Source: Boudabousia marimammalium
GTDB lineage: Bacteria; Actinomycetota; Actinomycetes; Actinomycetales; Actinomycetaceae
NCBI RefSeq assembly: GCF_001936115.1
Contig: NZ_MPDM01000001.1
Location: forward strand, 210,123-274,122
Length of the DNA: 64,000 bases
Direction of reading: 5' to 3'
Positions 19,377 through 25,338 of the stretch are shown piece by piece; position 1 is the first letter of the stretch, and every line of letters begins with the position of its first letter. The position numbers and the translations under genes were made by a program. The notes under the pieces were generated by a model. That model did not search any database. It had not been told where the DNA came from and saw only the letters and a list, made by a program, of their open reading frames with translations.

Positions 19377-19712
19377 TCAGTTAGCAGGAAGGTGCTTGCG
19401 CAAAGTCTCCAGAATCTCAGACTTCGGGGCAGAATGCATAGTGTCGACTAGCTCCCCGTCCAAGAAAATCAGCATAGTTGGAATCGCGCGGATACCGTAT
19501 TTTGCTGGGGAAACAGGATTTTCATCCACGTTGAGTTTCCAGATGACGAGGTCGTCTCCCATTTCCTCAGCAATCTCATCCAGGACGGGTGAGAGCTGCC
19601 GGCACGGAGCACACCAAGGAGCCCAAAAATCCACCAGCATCAGACCGCGATCTAAACGAACATTCGCCTGGAATTGCCGGTCGGTGAGCTCCTTGGGTGC
19701 ATGTGCTGACAT
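19377..19712 (-). CDS. trxA: Thioredoxin
   Basis: A thioredoxin of 111 residues with the active site FWAPWCAPCRQLSPVLDEIA (Cys pair in WCAPC; the usual form is WCGPC) and the cis-Pro loop IRAIPTMLIFLDGE. It receives electrons from thioredoxin reductase and reduces protein disulfides. The ATG at 19712 has GGAG 8 bases upstream. It lies 36 bases downstream of trxB on the same strand, forming the reductase-thioredoxin operon usual near actinobacterial origins. Ala in place of Gly in the CxPC motif is a modest variation. Confidence 0.93.
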   Translation of the reverse strand: MSAHAPKELTDRQFQANVRLDRGLMLVDFWAPWCAPCRQLSPVLDEIAEEMGDDLVIWKLNVDENPVSPAKYGIRAIPTMLIFLDGELVDTMHSAPKSEILETLRKHLPAN

Positions 19713-19748
19713 CTTCAAAACTCCTCTGAAACTAATCTAAGTGAGTGC

Positions 19749-20753
19749 TTACAGGTTGGACAGGTAACGCTCTGTATCCAAAGCGGCGCGGCATCCGGAA
19801 GCCGCCGCAGTGATCGCCTGACGGTAGGTATGGTCCACTACGTCGCCACAGGCGAAAACGCCCGGCAGATTAGTTTCCGTACTGGGGTCAGCAACCTTAA
19901 TGTAACCCTTCTCGTCGAGGTCCACCTGATCCTTAATCAGCTCATTGCGCGGATCATGACCGATGGCCACGAAGAAGCCTGTTACATCTAGCTTGCTTTT
20001 TTCGCCAGTAACCGTGCTGGTCAGCGTCAGAGACTCCAAGGAATGGACGCCGTGAATCTCAGAAACCACTGAGTTCCAAGCGAACTTAATCTTCTCATTC
20101 GCGAAAGCGCGGTCAGCCATAATCTTGGAGGCGCGCAACTGATCACGACGGTGAATCACTGTCACAGAGCGGGCAAACTTAGACAAGAAGATAGCTTCTT
20201 CCAAAGCGGAATCGCCGCCGCCCACAACCGCAATATCCTGATCCTTGAAGAAGAATCCATCACAGGTAGCACAGTAGGAAACACCGTAGCCGGAGAGACG
20301 ATCCTCATCAGGCAGACCCAGCTTGCGGTATGCGGAGCCGGTAGCCAAAACTACTGCGCGGGCACGGAACTCTTGGTCTTCAGTCTTGACAATCTTCACG
20401 TTTCCGGTCAGGTCAACGGAGACAACATCCTCGTAACGAATATCGGCGCCAAAACGCTCAGCCTGCTGCTGGAAATTCTGCATCAAATCAGGGCCATTAA
20501 TGCCGTCAGGGAAACCGGGAAAGTTTTCCACTTCGGTGGTGTTCATCAGTGCACCACCGGCAGCCAAGGCGCCAGCTAGCACCAGCGGTTTCAGCTCAGC
20601 GCGAGCCAGGTAAATCGCGGCAGTGTATCCAGCTGGGCCCGAACCGACCACAATCACATCGCGCACAATCTCATCCCACTTACATTCCGTGGGGGTGCTT
20701 TGCGTCTGAGTGGTCAAGCCCGGAAGCGAGATATTCAAGTTAAGGTTATTCAT
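19749..20753 (-). CDS. trxB: Thioredoxin reductase
   Basis: A flavoprotein that passes electrons from NADPH to thioredoxin. The FAD-binding motif [20 protein letters not shown] lies at about residues 36-55. The redox-active CATCDG site is near 163, the NADPH-binding [12 protein letters not shown] near 182, and the C-terminal FAD motif [15 protein letters not shown] near 300. It has 334 residues. The N-terminus carries about 25 extra residues before the FAD domain. The ATG at 20753 is preceded by AAGGATCACA. It is cotranscribed with trxA. Confidence 0.95.
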
Positions 20754-20849: not shown

Positions 20850-21941
20850 TTATTTGACAGTCAGCGTGCCAAGCCATGCTCGGTTGCGACCCTCCCGATC
20901 CTTGGGGAGTTCAGCGATACGCAAGGTGAAGTGGTCTGTCAGTATCGGTTTATCCAGTTTCAACTGGAAACTGTCGGTGAAAGTGGCCCGAGCCAGCACC
21001 CCTCCAGCTTTCGGGTCTGCGCTAGCAGGGTCGAGGAAGTGGATGGTGCCGCCCTGCGCTGGTGACGTTAAATCCACAGTACTTACCCGCGCGGGCTTCT
21101 CCAAGTGAACCACTAGGTAGACGCCGTCATTGGCATAACTACTACGGCCGAAGTAGCGGCTACGCCAAAGCGAGTTCGGGTCTCCGTCAAGGAGCCGGCC
21201 AGTCATTTCTGGATGGTCGCCATCACCACCGCCCAAAGAAATCACATCAATCTTGGTGACCTTGGGTGAATCAGTTTGGGGGACTTCTGCAGTTTCCGGC
21301 GTTGGCTTAGAGAAGCCAGCATTACGCGCGGTTTCATAGTCCGCTGCACGGTAGGAATCAATCGGCTGGAGTAAGGTATGGTAAGCTATGGAGCCGACAA
21401 TCAGCACGATCAGAGCCGTGGAACCCAGCAGAATAGTTCGCATCAAAGTGAAGCCTTCCAGCTTCGGACGAGGCTTGTGCTCTGGTTCCGGTTTTGGCGG
21501 AGGAAGCTGAGAAATTGGAGTTAAATCAGCATCTTCAGAGTCACTATCGTAGGCGATAGCATCGTGAACCTTGGTGCCGGCGTGCTGCGCAAAAGAAAGA
21601 CTGCGGGCGTATCCGGTCTGTAAAGAGTGCTTTAGTTTTTCAGACTGCTCAAGGAACTTTTCCTGGGTGCTGGATTTATTCTCACTAGCGATTGGCTCCG
21701 GCAGAGTTGGAGGGGCCGGCGGGGCAGGTGGAGTTTTCGGTCCAGCAGAAGTTTTCTTCGGCTTCTTGGGCTGCTTAGCTTTTTTCTGGTCAGAACTGGC
21801 CTGAACCGGTGAGTCTGATTCTGCAGCATCTTCTTCAGCTTGTAACATGGCGTCTTGCTGCGAAGCCTTCTCAGCTAAAGCTTCACGAATCTCCCGGAAT
21901 ACAGAACTCGGGTCCTCCTCCGGATTCGTTTGCTTTGCCAT
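20850..21941 (-). CDS. Single-pass membrane protein with discoidin-like C-terminal domain (MviN C-terminal remnant?)
   Basis: A protein of 363 residues. The first ~185 are charged and low in complexity (Gln/Ala/Asp, then a Lys/Pro segment). One transmembrane helix follows (MRTILLGSTALIVLIVGSIAY, about residues 190-210). The extracytoplasmic end contains DGDPNSLWRSRYFGRS and VYLVVHLEKPARVSTVDLTS, the style of an F5/8 type C (discoidin-like) domain. In Mycobacterium and others the gene at this position, between the Rv3909-like DUF6049 gene and trxB, encodes MviN: a MurJ flippase fused to a pseudokinase and such a C-terminal domain. Here the MurJ and kinase parts are absent. Start: ATG at 21941 after GGAGG. 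The relationship to MviN is inference from position and architecture. Confidence 0.6.
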   Translation of the reverse strand: MAKQTNPEEDPSSVFREIREALAEKASQQDAMLQAEEDAAESDSPVQASSDQKKAKQPKKPKKTSAGPKTPPAPPAPPTLPEPIASENKSSTQEKFLEQSEKLKHSLQTGYARSLSFAQHAGTKVHDAIAYDSDSEDADLTPISQLPPPKPEPEHKPRPKLEGFTLMRTILLGSTALIVLIVGSIAYHTLLQPIDSYRAADYETARNAGFSKPTPETAEVPQTDSPKVTKIDVISLGGGDGDHPEMTGRLLDGDPNSLWRSRYFGRSSYANDGVYLVVHLEKPARVSTVDLTSPAQGGTIHFLDPASADPKAGGVLARATFTDSFQLKLDKPILTDHFTLRIAELPKDREGRNRAWLGTLTVK

Positions 21942-22058
21942 CTTGTCCTCCACAATAAATCAGCTACCAGATACCATTTTGCCTTATTTCCCTAGTGTAT
22001 GGGAAACAGCCCAGCGGTGAGTTAGAAAACAGTTGTTTGCTTGCACATAACGCATGAT

Positions 22059-24497
22059 TTACAGGTCATGGAACTGCTTCACGTTGGCGAAATCTTTACT
22101 TGCGACAGGACGACCCATCCGAATTCTGCGCCACAGACCAAAGATAAAAACTGCTAGGGCGATTCCGCCAAGTACGAAGAGTCCGCGAGTTTCCCAGTCG
22201 GCCCGGACGCGAACAATAATCGAGGCGGTCTGGGCAACCGGCTCATTTGCGGAAGAATAGACAGAAATTTGGGTTCGGATATCCCCAGACCCAACACCGT
22301 TCAAAGATAGATTCACCGTGCTTCCAGAACTGGGAGGAAGCTGCGCCTCAGTAGTTTTCGGGGACTGTAAACGCGGGGATGAAGAATCTGCTTTGAAAGT
22401 AGCTGTCACAGGCCAAGGTAGCTGGTTTTGTACTGCAACCGGCAGGGTACTTTCACCATAAATCATCAGCACCGACTTTGGTGCTGTTAGCTGGACAGGG
22501 GTGTACCAAGGCTGCAAAGACTGTTCCCATGCGGCTAAGCCGGGTTCCACCTCCGCATTGCAGTTGAGCTGCAGTAAGAGTGCGTCAGTCACCGGGTTTA
22601 ACAGGTTATGGGGTTCGTCGAGGATGGCTGCGATCTTCTCAATCCGTTGCATCGCGTGAATCGCTACCCGTAATGTATCTGCGTCTACCGCTTCCACGGT
22701 AGCGGTAGACGCAGAGCCTTCACTCAAAGTGATGGGTGGGACAGGCTGCTTTGGCAGACTCTGGTTAAGCGTTTGCAGACGAATCCAGTCTTGTGTTTTA
22801 GTCAGTTCTTTGAGCTCTTCACCCGTGCGGATAATACTTGCCGGGGAAGCCGGGACAGTGACCGCTAATGATTGAGAAGCCCGAGCAGAATCAGCTAAAG
22901 CAGCTAAAAAGAGCTGAGAATTGTTGAAATCCGAACTGGCGTGACCACCCGTCTTGCTGGCTGTTTGTAATGTCCTAGAGACTTCCGAATTTATAATCAG
23001 AGTTGGAACCGGGCCACTGGCTTCAGCAAGTTTCAACTGTCCCGCGCTCAGGTTAGCAGAATCTCGAACCAGTGAATCCGGTGCAAGCAGGTTAATGCCA
23101 GTACTAGATTTCGCAAGCAAATCTAGAAGCTGGGGGTCGCTGCTAGACAGTGGCACCAGCGGCATTATAGATGTCGGTTGGGCACTGGCGCTGCTGAGTA
23201 ACCGCAACCAGTCGGCTTGTTTCTGCAAGGATCGGGCAGCAGTTAACTCTCCCTCGATACCCATTGTCGCGAGCCCTTCAAAATGGGGACTACTCCACGG
23301 TAAGAGGGCCACTGATCCGGAAGGTAAAAGGGTGACCTGATGGGCCAAACCCAGGAGCTCCCGTTTAGTGTGCGCCAGCGCTGAGGGTTCTTCCGGAATG
23401 GGGGCGCGTAAGCCTTCCGTAGTCTCTGTTGCGGTGACGGGCGTGGGTACCGCCGAGGGGGCCGCCTCCTCAGCTGTAGGGGAAACAGTAGCAACGGTGG
23501 AGAAAGACTTAATCTGATCTGCCGTCGGTAAACCATCAGTACTGACATTAGCGAGATCAGGAAGAAGCCGGCGAGAATACTCCAAGAGGGCGGGGTCAAG
23601 CAGCAGATTAATTCCTGCAGCAGAACTAGCGGAGATGATGGACTCAGCCCGCGCAGAAGCCGCCTGCGCGGGCACATCCGCCTGCAAATCAGCTGCCTCA
23701 AACTCCAGCCTAGTTAAAACTGTTAAATCTACCTGCGGGTCTTTCGCTCCAGCTAAGGATGGTAACAAAGTATTCGCATCCAACTGGTAGGAGTCACCAA
23801 CAGTACTGGTATCTGCAGTAATCTCTAGGGGTAGAGGCAATGTCGGCTCAAAACTGTAACCGGGCCGGCTGACTCCCATTTCTGCGGGCCGAGGCAGGTT
23901 AGAACTAGAACCATCAGCCTCTAAAGATTGCAAATACTGGGTGACTTTGGTGCGGGAAGCTTTTGCCGAATAGGAAATATTGGACAGAGAACGTACTGAC
24001 AGTTGAGTGCTCAAGCCATAAATGCCCGGTTTACTCAGAAGAGGTTCTAACTGTTTGCGTGGCAGGGTTACTTTCACTCTAGCTTCTGAAGTGGCAAACA
24101 TGCTAGGGAGGCTGATTGAAGATAACACCGTAACTGGTTTATGTTCAGTGGCCGCCAGCCAGTCGGCCCGCTGTTTAGCGGCAGTCAAAGAAGAGCTAGT
24201 GAGGGAAACTGTCAGTTTTGGGGTGCGCAGGTAATGCGGAGAATTGTTCTTCACCAGCAAATGTAGAGTCACATCAGATTTGCTGCTGTCGGTCCACACC
24301 CTCGGCGAAAACTCAAGCACCTCAATGCCGGCGCGGTCTGCAACGCGAGTGGGAGTAGACTCAAGCGCGGAAGCTTGGGAGGCTACAGCAAGTCCAGAAA
24401 AACTCAAAAGCAAGGTCACTAGCACCGCGCATAATGCTGCCAAGAGCCAAGAAGAAGTCTGTTTACGTGAGGAAAACCGCTGCTGCACCCGTGCCAA
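22059..24497 (-). CDS. DUF6049 family secreted/membrane-anchored protein
   Basis: A protein of about 812 residues: an N-terminal signal/anchor (SSWLLAALCAVLVTLLLSFSG), a large extracytoplasmic part, and a C-terminal helix (LFVLGGIALAVFIFGLW) followed by a basic tail. The extracytoplasmic part begins with a beta-rich region (VTLHLLVKNNSPHYLRTPKL) and ends with another beta-sandwich (YGESTLPVAVQNQLPWPVTATF). This topology and the position between a NUDIX gene and the MviN position match the Rv3909/DUF6049 family, of unknown function but linked to the cell envelope. I choose the TTG at 24497 with GGAGG 6 bases upstream, one base after the NUDIX stop. A longer frame would overlap that gene. Confidence 0.75.
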   Translation of the reverse strand: MARVQQRFSSRKQTSSWLLAALCAVLVTLLLSFSGLAVASQASALESTPTRVADRAGIEVLEFSPRVWTDSSKSDVTLHLLVKNNSPHYLRTPKLTVSLTSSSLTAAKQRADWLAATEHKPVTVLSSISLPSMFATSEARVKVTLPRKQLEPLLSKPGIYGLSTQLSVRSLSNISYSAKASRTKVTQYLQSLEADGSSSNLPRPAEMGVSRPGYSFEPTLPLPLEITADTSTVGDSYQLDANTLLPSLAGAKDPQVDLTVLTRLEFEAADLQADVPAQAASARAESIISASSAAGINLLLDPALLEYSRRLLPDLANVSTDGLPTADQIKSFSTVATVSPTAEEAAPSAVPTPVTATETTEGLRAPIPEEPSALAHTKRELLGLAHQVTLLPSGSVALLPWSSPHFEGLATMGIEGELTAARSLQKQADWLRLLSSASAQPTSIMPLVPLSSSDPQLLDLLAKSSTGINLLAPDSLVRDSANLSAGQLKLAEASGPVPTLIINSEVSRTLQTASKTGGHASSDFNNSQLFLAALADSARASQSLAVTVPASPASIIRTGEELKELTKTQDWIRLQTLNQSLPKQPVPPITLSEGSASTATVEAVDADTLRVAIHAMQRIEKIAAILDEPHNLLNPVTDALLLQLNCNAEVEPGLAAWEQSLQPWYTPVQLTAPKSVLMIYGESTLPVAVQNQLPWPVTATFKADSSSPRLQSPKTTEAQLPPSSGSTVNLSLNGVGSGDIRTQISVYSSANEPVAQTASIIVRVRADWETRGLFVLGGIALAVFIFGLWRRIRMGRPVASKDFANVKQFHDL

Positions 24498-24498
24498 G

Positions 24499-25338
24499 CT
24501 AGTCCTCCAAATCAAGCAGGTCTTGAGCAATCGCAATAATTCGACGCTCATTCGGATAAGCTAAGCGCTGCGCCACCTCACTTAAAGGCACCCAAGCCGC
24601 CACCTCCGCCTCATGGTCAGGGTCATTTTCCACGGTAATATCCCCAGACAGAGCCTCCATCAGATAGTGGTGGACGACCTTATGAATTCGTCGAGATGAG
24701 CCCGCAAACCAGTAGTCAATCGAAGCTAGGTGCGTGATCACGCGGCCGTGAATGCCGGTTTCTTCGCCAACTTCACGAACCGCAGCCTGCTGGATGGTTT
24801 CCCCCAGTTCCACGTGCCCCTTCGGGAGACACCATTCAATGTTGCCAGTGCGATTACGGCGGGCAATCACCGCTACACTTACCCGTCCATCAATCTTGGC
24901 GACCACTAGGCCGCCAGCGGAAGTCTCATCATAGACTGGCGGACGCGCCCGCTCAGACTGGACACTCCCAATCATGGTACCGGTACGTGACAAACGACGT
25001 GAAACCATCTGCGGAGTGGGAATGTGACCAATTCCAGTTTTGCTGGATTTATCTTGCCGAGGATGATGCTGATGGCCTTCTTCTTCCTCACTCTGAGGGT
25101 TCTCAGCAGAGCGATCAGCAGCTGGCTTGCCCGCCTGATCTGAACCGCTGGGAAGAACCTCCTGAGAATCGTATTTTCCTTGAGATCGCAGGGTAAAAGC
25201 GGTATTCTCAGGAGTGCTTGAAGGAGGTGAGTTAGGGGGCTGTGAGAAGTTCCGTGGCGTAGAGGTCTCGCGCCCCTCAGCCGGCCCGGAGGACGACTTA
25301 AAGCTAGGGCGCTCACTGCGCGACGGATCGATATACAT
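24499..25338 (-). CDS. NUDIX hydrolase (MutT4-like)
   Basis: The C-terminal ~160 residues are a NUDIX domain: SAGGLVVAKIDGRVSVAVI, then the Nudix box starting GHVELGE and ending REVGEETGI (G-x5-E-x7-REVxEEx-G/I), with metal-binding glutamates intact. The first ~115 residues are Ser/Pro/Gln-rich and probably disordered. Family members cleave nucleoside diphosphates linked to another moiety; the substrate here is unknown. The position divergent from pcnA and ahead of the DUF6049 gene is the Rv3908 (mutT4) arrangement. The ATG at 25338 has no good ribosome binding site. A later in-frame start near the NUDIX domain is possible. Confidence 0.85.
   Translation of the reverse strand: MYIDPSRSERPSFKSSSGPAEGRETSTPRNFSQPPNSPPSSTPENTAFTLRSQGKYDSQEVLPSGSDQAGKPAADRSAENPQSEEEEGHQHHPRQDKSSKTGIGHIPTPQMVSRRLSRTGTMIGSVQSERARPPVYDETSAGGLVVAKIDGRVSVAVIARRNRTGNIEWCLPKGHVELGETIQQAAVREVGEETGIHGRVITHLASIDYWFAGSSRRIHKVVHHYLMEALSGDITVENDPDHEAEVAAWVPLSEVAQRLAYPNERRIIAIAQDLLDLED

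Follow-up and report, generated by a model that had tools for sequence, protein, structure and literature searches.

The locus between the DUF6049 gene and trxB in Boudabousia marimammalium raises the question of what has become of MviN, a flippase (MurJ) fused to a pseudokinase and an outer domain, when only a short membrane protein stands in its place. In mycobacteria, the gene order is NUDIX, DUF6049, MviN, sigM, trxB and trxA. The window, which is the whole stretch of 64,000 nucleotides that was analysed, contains the neighbours other than sigM as found by Pfam (Table 1), in the order given by a preliminary description made from the letters alone. MviN's place is taken by a gene encoding a protein of 363 amino acids.

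Table 1. Features of the MviN-type locus in the window (positions in the window; all on the minus strand)
Feature	Coordinates	Strand	Evidence
NUDIX hydrolase	24499..25338	-	PF00293, 80.5 bits
DUF6049 (Rv3909-like)	22059..24551	-	PF19516, 134.9 bits
363-aa single-pass membrane protein, MviN C-terminal piece	20850..21941	-	ORF and Shine-Dalgarno sequence; hhalign to full-length MviN C-termini
N-terminal helix motif, residues ~13-26, conserved in the genus	21864..21905	-	Genus alignment; within AlphaFold helix 11-40
Remaining cytoplasmic part, Pro/Ser/Glu/Lys-rich, without pseudokinase	21456..21821	-	pLDDT 45-78; HMM and Pfam
Predicted transmembrane helix, residues 163-191	21369..21455	-	AF2 helix, pLDDT 77-93; sequence hydrophobic
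Extracytoplasmic discoidin/CBM32-like domain, residues 225-363	20853..21269	-	pLDDT >90 nearly throughout; F5/8C-CBM32 structure matches
Thioredoxin reductase trxB	19749..20753	-	PF07992, 186 bits; named from family and position
Thioredoxin trxA	19377..19718	-	PF00085, 93.7 bits

The open frame at 20850-21953 (minus strand) comprises 367 codons from its first GTG. An ATG at 21941 yields 363 amino acids and is preceded at five bases by the Shine-Dalgarno sequence GGAGG; therefore, 20850-21941 is the likely gene, in agreement with the length first proposed. No MurJ domain (PF03023) was found in the protein by Pfam, and no pseudokinase was detected at E <= 10 by a pseudokinase HMM or as Pkinase by Pfam, which confirms that both parts are missing here. 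The HMM was built from 20 family pseudokinases and recovers 26 relatives' locus proteins as well as the window genome's own kinases. An AlphaFold model computed with 34 family sequences, whose pLDDT ranges were read by blocks of ten, contains helices at residues 11-40 and 90-121 with low-confidence stretches between them, followed by a membrane-like helix and a beta domain with pLDDT >90. This profile agrees with the earlier picture of a disordered cytoplasmic part, one membrane helix and a discoidin-like end.

The protein encoded at 20850-21941 shares ancestry with the C-terminal end of MviN. In a tblastn-type search it matched 94 of 119 relatives, many of them in frames of 700-2400 aa, and the matches in these long frames were C-terminal ends wherever the position in the frame was examined. 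When a profile of the four Boudabousia proteins was aligned by hhalign with a profile of ten full-length MviN C-terminal ends, the probability was 100% and the E-value 6.6e-40 over 197 columns. The preliminary description regarded a C-terminal domain unlike MviN as fatal to its reading; the domain matches MviN by both methods, and the protein is a C-terminal piece of an MviN-like protein. Profiles built from relatives located MurJ, pseudokinase and discoidin, in that order, in class-level frames of 1243 and 1360 aa. As these HMMs come from relatives, their E-values favour Actinomycetaceae; the class-level MviN frames provided a control from beyond the family. In one relative (G011, L058), the pseudokinase matched solved chains 3OTV, 3OUN and 3UQC at E 1.5e-17, and these chains are named as MviN in the accessible text of PMC12599244 and PMC10166564.

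The AlphaFold model, Foldseek and VIA assign the outer domain to the jelly-roll fold of the F5/8 type C/CBM32 family. The best Foldseek E-value to F5/8C-CBM32 structures was 9.8e-7. VIA gave Z 11.5-13.8 over 114-133 residues among the matches listed (n=50), and the best-Z match (Z up to 13.8) had 115 aligned residues at an rmsd of 2.4. No MviN outer domain of solved structure for direct comparison was present among the structure matches. Pfam alone misses the outer domain (12.4 of the 27.8 bits of the gathering score for PF22633), and the pseudokinase-bearing proteins that were scanned gave weak Pfam matches at best. The fold is shared with galactose-, chitosan- and alginate-binding modules and also with eukaryotic DOC-type, BIRC6 and IFT25 domains. 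In contrast to this likeness in fold, the sequence identity is 7-18% among the matches listed, and sugar or lipid binding by the outer domain is putative. Weak discoidin-profile matches (E ~1e-4) also occur elsewhere in the window genome, at G000:C8:79607-79975 and G000:C12:3188-3502, in frames of 1233 and 1244 aa that are perhaps large surface proteins with discoidin domains.

The flippase is encoded elsewhere. The window genome, 1.84 Mb long with a stated completeness of 99.98%, has a sole MurJ-family match at E <= 10, located at G000:C1:71467-72861 with 195.8 bits. This MurJ of 578 aa lies on the same contig, about 158 kb from the gene of the 363-aa protein, and at that distance the operon link is gone. 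It scored 193.2 bits against PF03023 (cut-off 27.4) across positions 3-441 of 451. In an alignment it keeps SRxLGFxR and the following D, identical to solved chains 6cc4, 9nu4 and 9ukv, which we take to be E. coli MurJ; the motif and the Asp presumably represent conserved cavity residues of MurJ. All four Boudabousia genomes have one MurJ match each, and its neighbours in the four genomes fall in two shared gene clusters, represented in the window genome by a DUF5926 gene and a family 2 glycosyltransferase.

In trees of 47 and 46 rows, the four Boudabousia MurJs nest among the in-place MviN MurJs of Actinomycetaceae. The second tree is a selection, in which 10 of the first tree's 47 rows were dropped and 9 added; 5 of ten further loci went in. 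A tree with Boudabousia MurJ outside the other family MurJs (held together) was rejected by the AU test (p-AU 0.0039). Because it groups inside the in-place MviN MurJs, the distant 578-aa protein is most likely the relocated orthologue of the locus MurJ and a putative flippase. It is highly improbable that a different flippase, such as Amj, a Wzx-type carrier or the family's second MurJ-like paralogue, has replaced it. Some family genomes do carry a second diverged MurJ-like gene, and Boudabousia MurJ held with four sequences of this distant paralogue was not rejected (p 0.125). This value may arise because the long paralogue branch attaches anywhere, and it counts against full certainty of the orthologue assignment. 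Against the paralogue, Boudabousia MurJ is 31-39% identical to in-place MurJs (194-308 bits) but 23-28% identical to the paralogue (68-92 bits), and its neighbours are unlike the paralogue's gene block. A search for an alternative flippase, which covered Amj, found none. Of the two options that the preliminary description had left side by side, the move of the flippase to a separate gene is thus upheld by the one MurJ match that its proposed genome search returned, whereas replacement by another flippase is disfavoured by the rejected tree and the lack of an Amj match. Faster evolution of the freed MurJ was also considered (stem 1.4-1.5); root-to-tip lengths are only moderately above those of its neighbours, and no claim is made.

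The second, very diverged MurJ-like gene encodes 554-628 aa and occurs at L092, L093, L094, L100 and L101 (G036, G069, G014, G008 and G032, respectively). It adjoins seven gene clusters common to all five carrier genomes.

The locus was classified in 69 of the 73 family genomes; G009, G017, G038 and G062 were left out (contig end or unfetched), and G070, G037 and other contig-end loci were counted as seen. MurJ, pseudokinase and discoidin share one frame in 23 of the 69 genomes, and pseudokinase and discoidin remain together with MurJ elsewhere in 26. MurJ and discoidin without a pseudokinase are fused in eight genomes and form neighbouring frames in five. Single genomes have MurJ fused to pseudokinase beside a discoidin frame, MurJ and discoidin at two contig ends, and MurJ only (G032). 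The discoidin-only state was found in four genomes, which are all those of Boudabousia that were analysed (n=4; including Boudabousia liubingyangii and 'Actinomycetaceae bacterium TAE3-ERU4'). The comparison with sister genera that the preliminary description recommended finds the tail-only arrangement, among the classified family genomes, in this genus alone, and the short form does not occur beside a full-length MviN in any of the 69 classified family genomes, a co-occurrence that had been named as contrary evidence. Overall, 18 of 69 genomes lack the pseudokinase, and MurJ is gone from the locus in 30, with the best MurJ match elsewhere in the genome in all 26 + 4. The discoidin-like part was detected in 68 of 69, whether attached to MurJ or pseudokinase or not.

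A second discoidin-only candidate from another family of the order, G076 (L176), was not counted because of undetermined residues near the frame start. Its discoidin frame of 362 aa lies before trxB, and no MurJ, pseudokinase or DUF6049 was found in the stretch examined.

On the species tree and the MurJ trees, the genomes with a departed MurJ form a large clade (24), the pair G030/G058, and Boudabousia. Boudabousia MurJ held with the large clade (9 genomes sampled) was rejected by the AU test with p-AU 1.6e-8, and held with G030/G058 with p-AU 2.9e-4. As judged from these tree comparisons, MurJ has left the locus independently in at least three lineages of Actinomycetaceae. The large clade may hold more than one departure, since G052 on its branch retains MurJ in place. 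Fitch counts on a tree built by FastTree from three proteins of the neighbourhood gave 3 changes for the kinase and 4 for MurJ-in-place, which are lower bounds because regain is allowed. In genus g21, G052 (L129) has MurJ and pseudokinase in place together with a separate discoidin frame, and G023 (L070) has pseudokinase and discoidin with MurJ elsewhere. This pair is possibly an intermediate of MurJ departure.

G032 (L079) represents a natural knock-out, as it is the only one of 69 genomes with MurJ in place and neither other part detected. The discoidin part was absent both by the single-protein search and at the locus, and no pseudokinase was found. MurJ can thus work without the discoidin part.

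The preliminary description also listed sigM as missing. Its absence here is correct, but as a local departure the claim fails, and mycobacterial gene order is an unsuitable baseline for sigM. In the 69 family loci, the gap between the discoidin-like frame and the trxB match that follows it ranges from -28 to 615 bp (median 65), which leaves no room for a sigma-factor gene at nearly all of them. The absence of sigM is family-wide and not peculiar to the window genome. In a related family, two frames separate trxB from the kinase+discoidin gene of G073 (L147, 1518-3163 (-)); by eye, one is ECF-sigma-like, as in the mycobacterial sigM arrangement.

Within Boudabousia, the protein is conserved at both ends. 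The genus proteins are 27-37% identical to the 363-aa protein; in the last 201 residues, at the outer-domain end, 32 positions are invariant in the four proteins at 34-36% identity to the window protein. This conservation is consistent with selection on the outer domain. The N-terminal helix has the consensus VIxGIRKALxxKA with R19, A21, L22, K25 and A26 invariant in 4/4 genus members, and its pLDDT is 81-89 by blocks of ten in the AF2 model. A model of this motif found no other protein at E < 1 in the four Boudabousia genomes (next match E 1.08). A strongly amphipathic character of the helix was considered and dropped, the hydrophobic moment (0.19-0.53) not being uniformly high. Because both ends are conserved and the cytoplasmic stretch is free in length, the protein may work at each end, binding on the outside through its discoidin-like domain and docking on the inside through its helix, with a flexible tether between them.

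The same data bear on the view that the 363-aa protein is a decaying MviN remnant, which is unlikely. Decay might be read from the cytoplasmic remainder, whose length varies across the genus (frames of 369 to 878 codons), and from G032, in which no such part was detected. Erosion would hardly leave, on the other side, a well-started and unbroken frame here and unbroken frames in the other three genus genomes, the invariant positions of the outer-domain end and the conserved N-terminal helix.

The known regulators of mycobacterial MviN are partly present in Boudabousia. FhaA_N was found in the window genome with 70.7 bits, in a frame of 233 aa whose FHA part was seen by eye, and among the relatives it is present in 116 of 119; none of the 18 classified pseudokinase-less genomes, of which the window genome is one, lacks it. 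Four Pkinase matches over the cut-off represent Ser/Thr kinases. The FhaA-kinase side is therefore present, and the known docking domain of MviN is nonetheless gone. For the phosphorylated threonine that binds FhaA in mycobacteria, no alignable counterpart was seen before the membrane helix in the genus, since the four cytoplasmic tails do not align around a common Thr. Boudabousia MurJ ends some 50 residues past the Pfam domain, so no MurJ-pseudokinase linker exists in the genus. No match to Amidase_3, which we take to be the class of CwlM, was found in the four Boudabousia genomes, against 25 of 74 relatives with a match, a count in which CwlM is not separated from other amidases; the mycobacterial CwlM-MurJ link may thus be absent in Boudabousia. 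In mycobacteria, the pseudokinase tail is phosphorylated and binds FhaA, and the MurJ-pseudokinase linker binds CwlM (available text of PMC10166564, PMC6180346, PMC12599244 and PMC11898655).

The family's lowest FhaA_N scores, 64-71 bits, belong to three pseudokinase-less genomes, G000, G022 and G051 (a contig-edge fragment in G031 aside). The other pseudokinase-less genomes have 93-122 bits, and a tie between low score and pseudokinase loss is unproven. A protein of 409 aa at L112:700-1929 (-) on G000:C3 was rejected as the lost MviN pseudokinase on account of a membrane helix of its own and, by eye, a different neighbourhood. Its kinase-like part is weak, a dihydrolipoamide acyltransferase-like frame stands beside it (by eye), and it is another pseudokinase-type membrane protein.

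Taken together, the preferred explanation, to which a probability of roughly 0.55 is given, is that MviN has been dismantled in this genus, with its tail kept in place, its MurJ relocated, and the leftover acting in trans as an envelope regulator. In the ancestor of Boudabousia, MurJ would have left the NUDIX-DUF6049-mviN-trxB locus to become a free-standing gene, and the pseudokinase would have been lost. The cytoplasmic tail, the membrane helix and the discoidin/CBM32-like domain would have remained in place as a gene of their own. The outer domain of the 363-aa protein may bind cell-wall glycan or precursor, and the cytoplasmic tail may dock a partner via the conserved N-terminal helix, such as MurJ, FhaA or another elongation protein. 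The former cis-acting tail of the flippase would then act in trans. From sequence and predicted structure, we infer that the membrane anchor together with the outer domain makes up the conserved core of a MurJ-linked envelope regulator, and that MurJ, FhaA or glycan would be its contacts.

The leftover protein could instead have a job unrelated to MurJ, for example as a glycan-binding anchor or sensor working alongside Ser/Thr kinases, DUF6049 or another activity encoded at the locus, in which case the fusion would reflect gene order. This reading is tentative but has real standing. A kinase+discoidin gene separate from MurJ is common, being a neighbouring frame in 6 of 9 order-level loci (G073, G077, G079, G097, G099 and G111). 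The discoidin profile matches 74 genomes in a sample of 149 from the phylum, mostly in frames of ~450-700 aa, of which few were checked for other parts. Once MurJ departs, the discoidin part keeps the locus, usually beside DUF6049. In many lineages, however, the discoidin part lies beside or within MurJ, and fusions of all three parts are frequent, which is usually a sign of a shared task. A bolder version of the dismantled-MviN explanation holds that the ancestral regulatory part, and the one lost least readily, is the discoidin-like domain rather than the pseudokinase; it would read an envelope glycan or lipid II on the outside and act on MurJ in trans, and in Boudabousia, the docking helix VIxGIRKALxxKA would have replaced the pseudokinase to yield a minimal one-pass flipping regulator. 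This extension is doubtful. Against the dismantled-MviN explanation as well as its extension, mycobacteria can do without the pseudokinase and the outer domain according to PMC10166564, section 8 (for the pseudokinase, likewise PMC6180346), and the pseudokinase part looks essential in Corynebacterium diphtheriae by transposon insertion (PMC10166564). The latter case disfavours ranking the outer domain above the pseudokinase everywhere.

In comparison with known systems, the 363-aa protein shares with mycobacterial MviN (Rv3910) the same neighbours and a C-terminal membrane helix followed by a discoidin-like domain. In contrast to Rv3910, it lacks MurJ and the pseudokinase, has a genus-specific N-terminal helix, and is separated from its MurJ by the distance given above. 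To our knowledge, Actinomycetaceae have no arabinogalactan. The 23 of 69 Actinomycetaceae genomes with three parts in one frame do not fit the statement, in the available portion of PMC10166564 (section 8), that the pseudokinase extension of MviN appears only with an arabinogalactan layer. The MviN pseudokinase is assigned to the ActPs3 family in the accessible sections of PMC12599244; this domain is absent from the 363-aa protein and present in the relative G011 (L058). According to the S6 Fig legend of PMC10166564, an extension-less mviN is followed downstream in Actinobacteria by a gene of its own for a 'protein kinase family protein'. Like the 363-aa gene, it would be a stand-alone carrier of what is elsewhere the C-terminus of MviN, and in our own reading it has this outer domain at its end as well. 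It differs in that it keeps the pseudokinase and adjoins murJ, neither of which holds for the Boudabousia locus. A literature search, thin on subscription journals, found no paper on MurJ relocation in Actinomycetaceae and no published report of the loss of MurJ and pseudokinase with the outer domain kept. As far as the sources seen extend, the separate kinase gene is already in print, and a tail-only locus and repeated MurJ departure in one family did not come up and are apparently new.

In the accessible parts of PMC10166564, PMC6180346, PMC12599244 and PMC11898655, the regulation of MviN is discussed via the pseudokinase, the linker and FhaA, and the outer domain is hardly treated. Actinomycetaceae offer a natural dissection of MviN in this respect: at least three lineages have MurJ out of the locus, 18 of 69 genomes lack the pseudokinase, and a single one of the 69 has no detected outer domain. 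These loss counts rank the parts of MviN by their resistance to loss and open the outer domain's role to testing. The tail retained in Boudabousia hints at the component of the ancestral fusion that it paid to keep.
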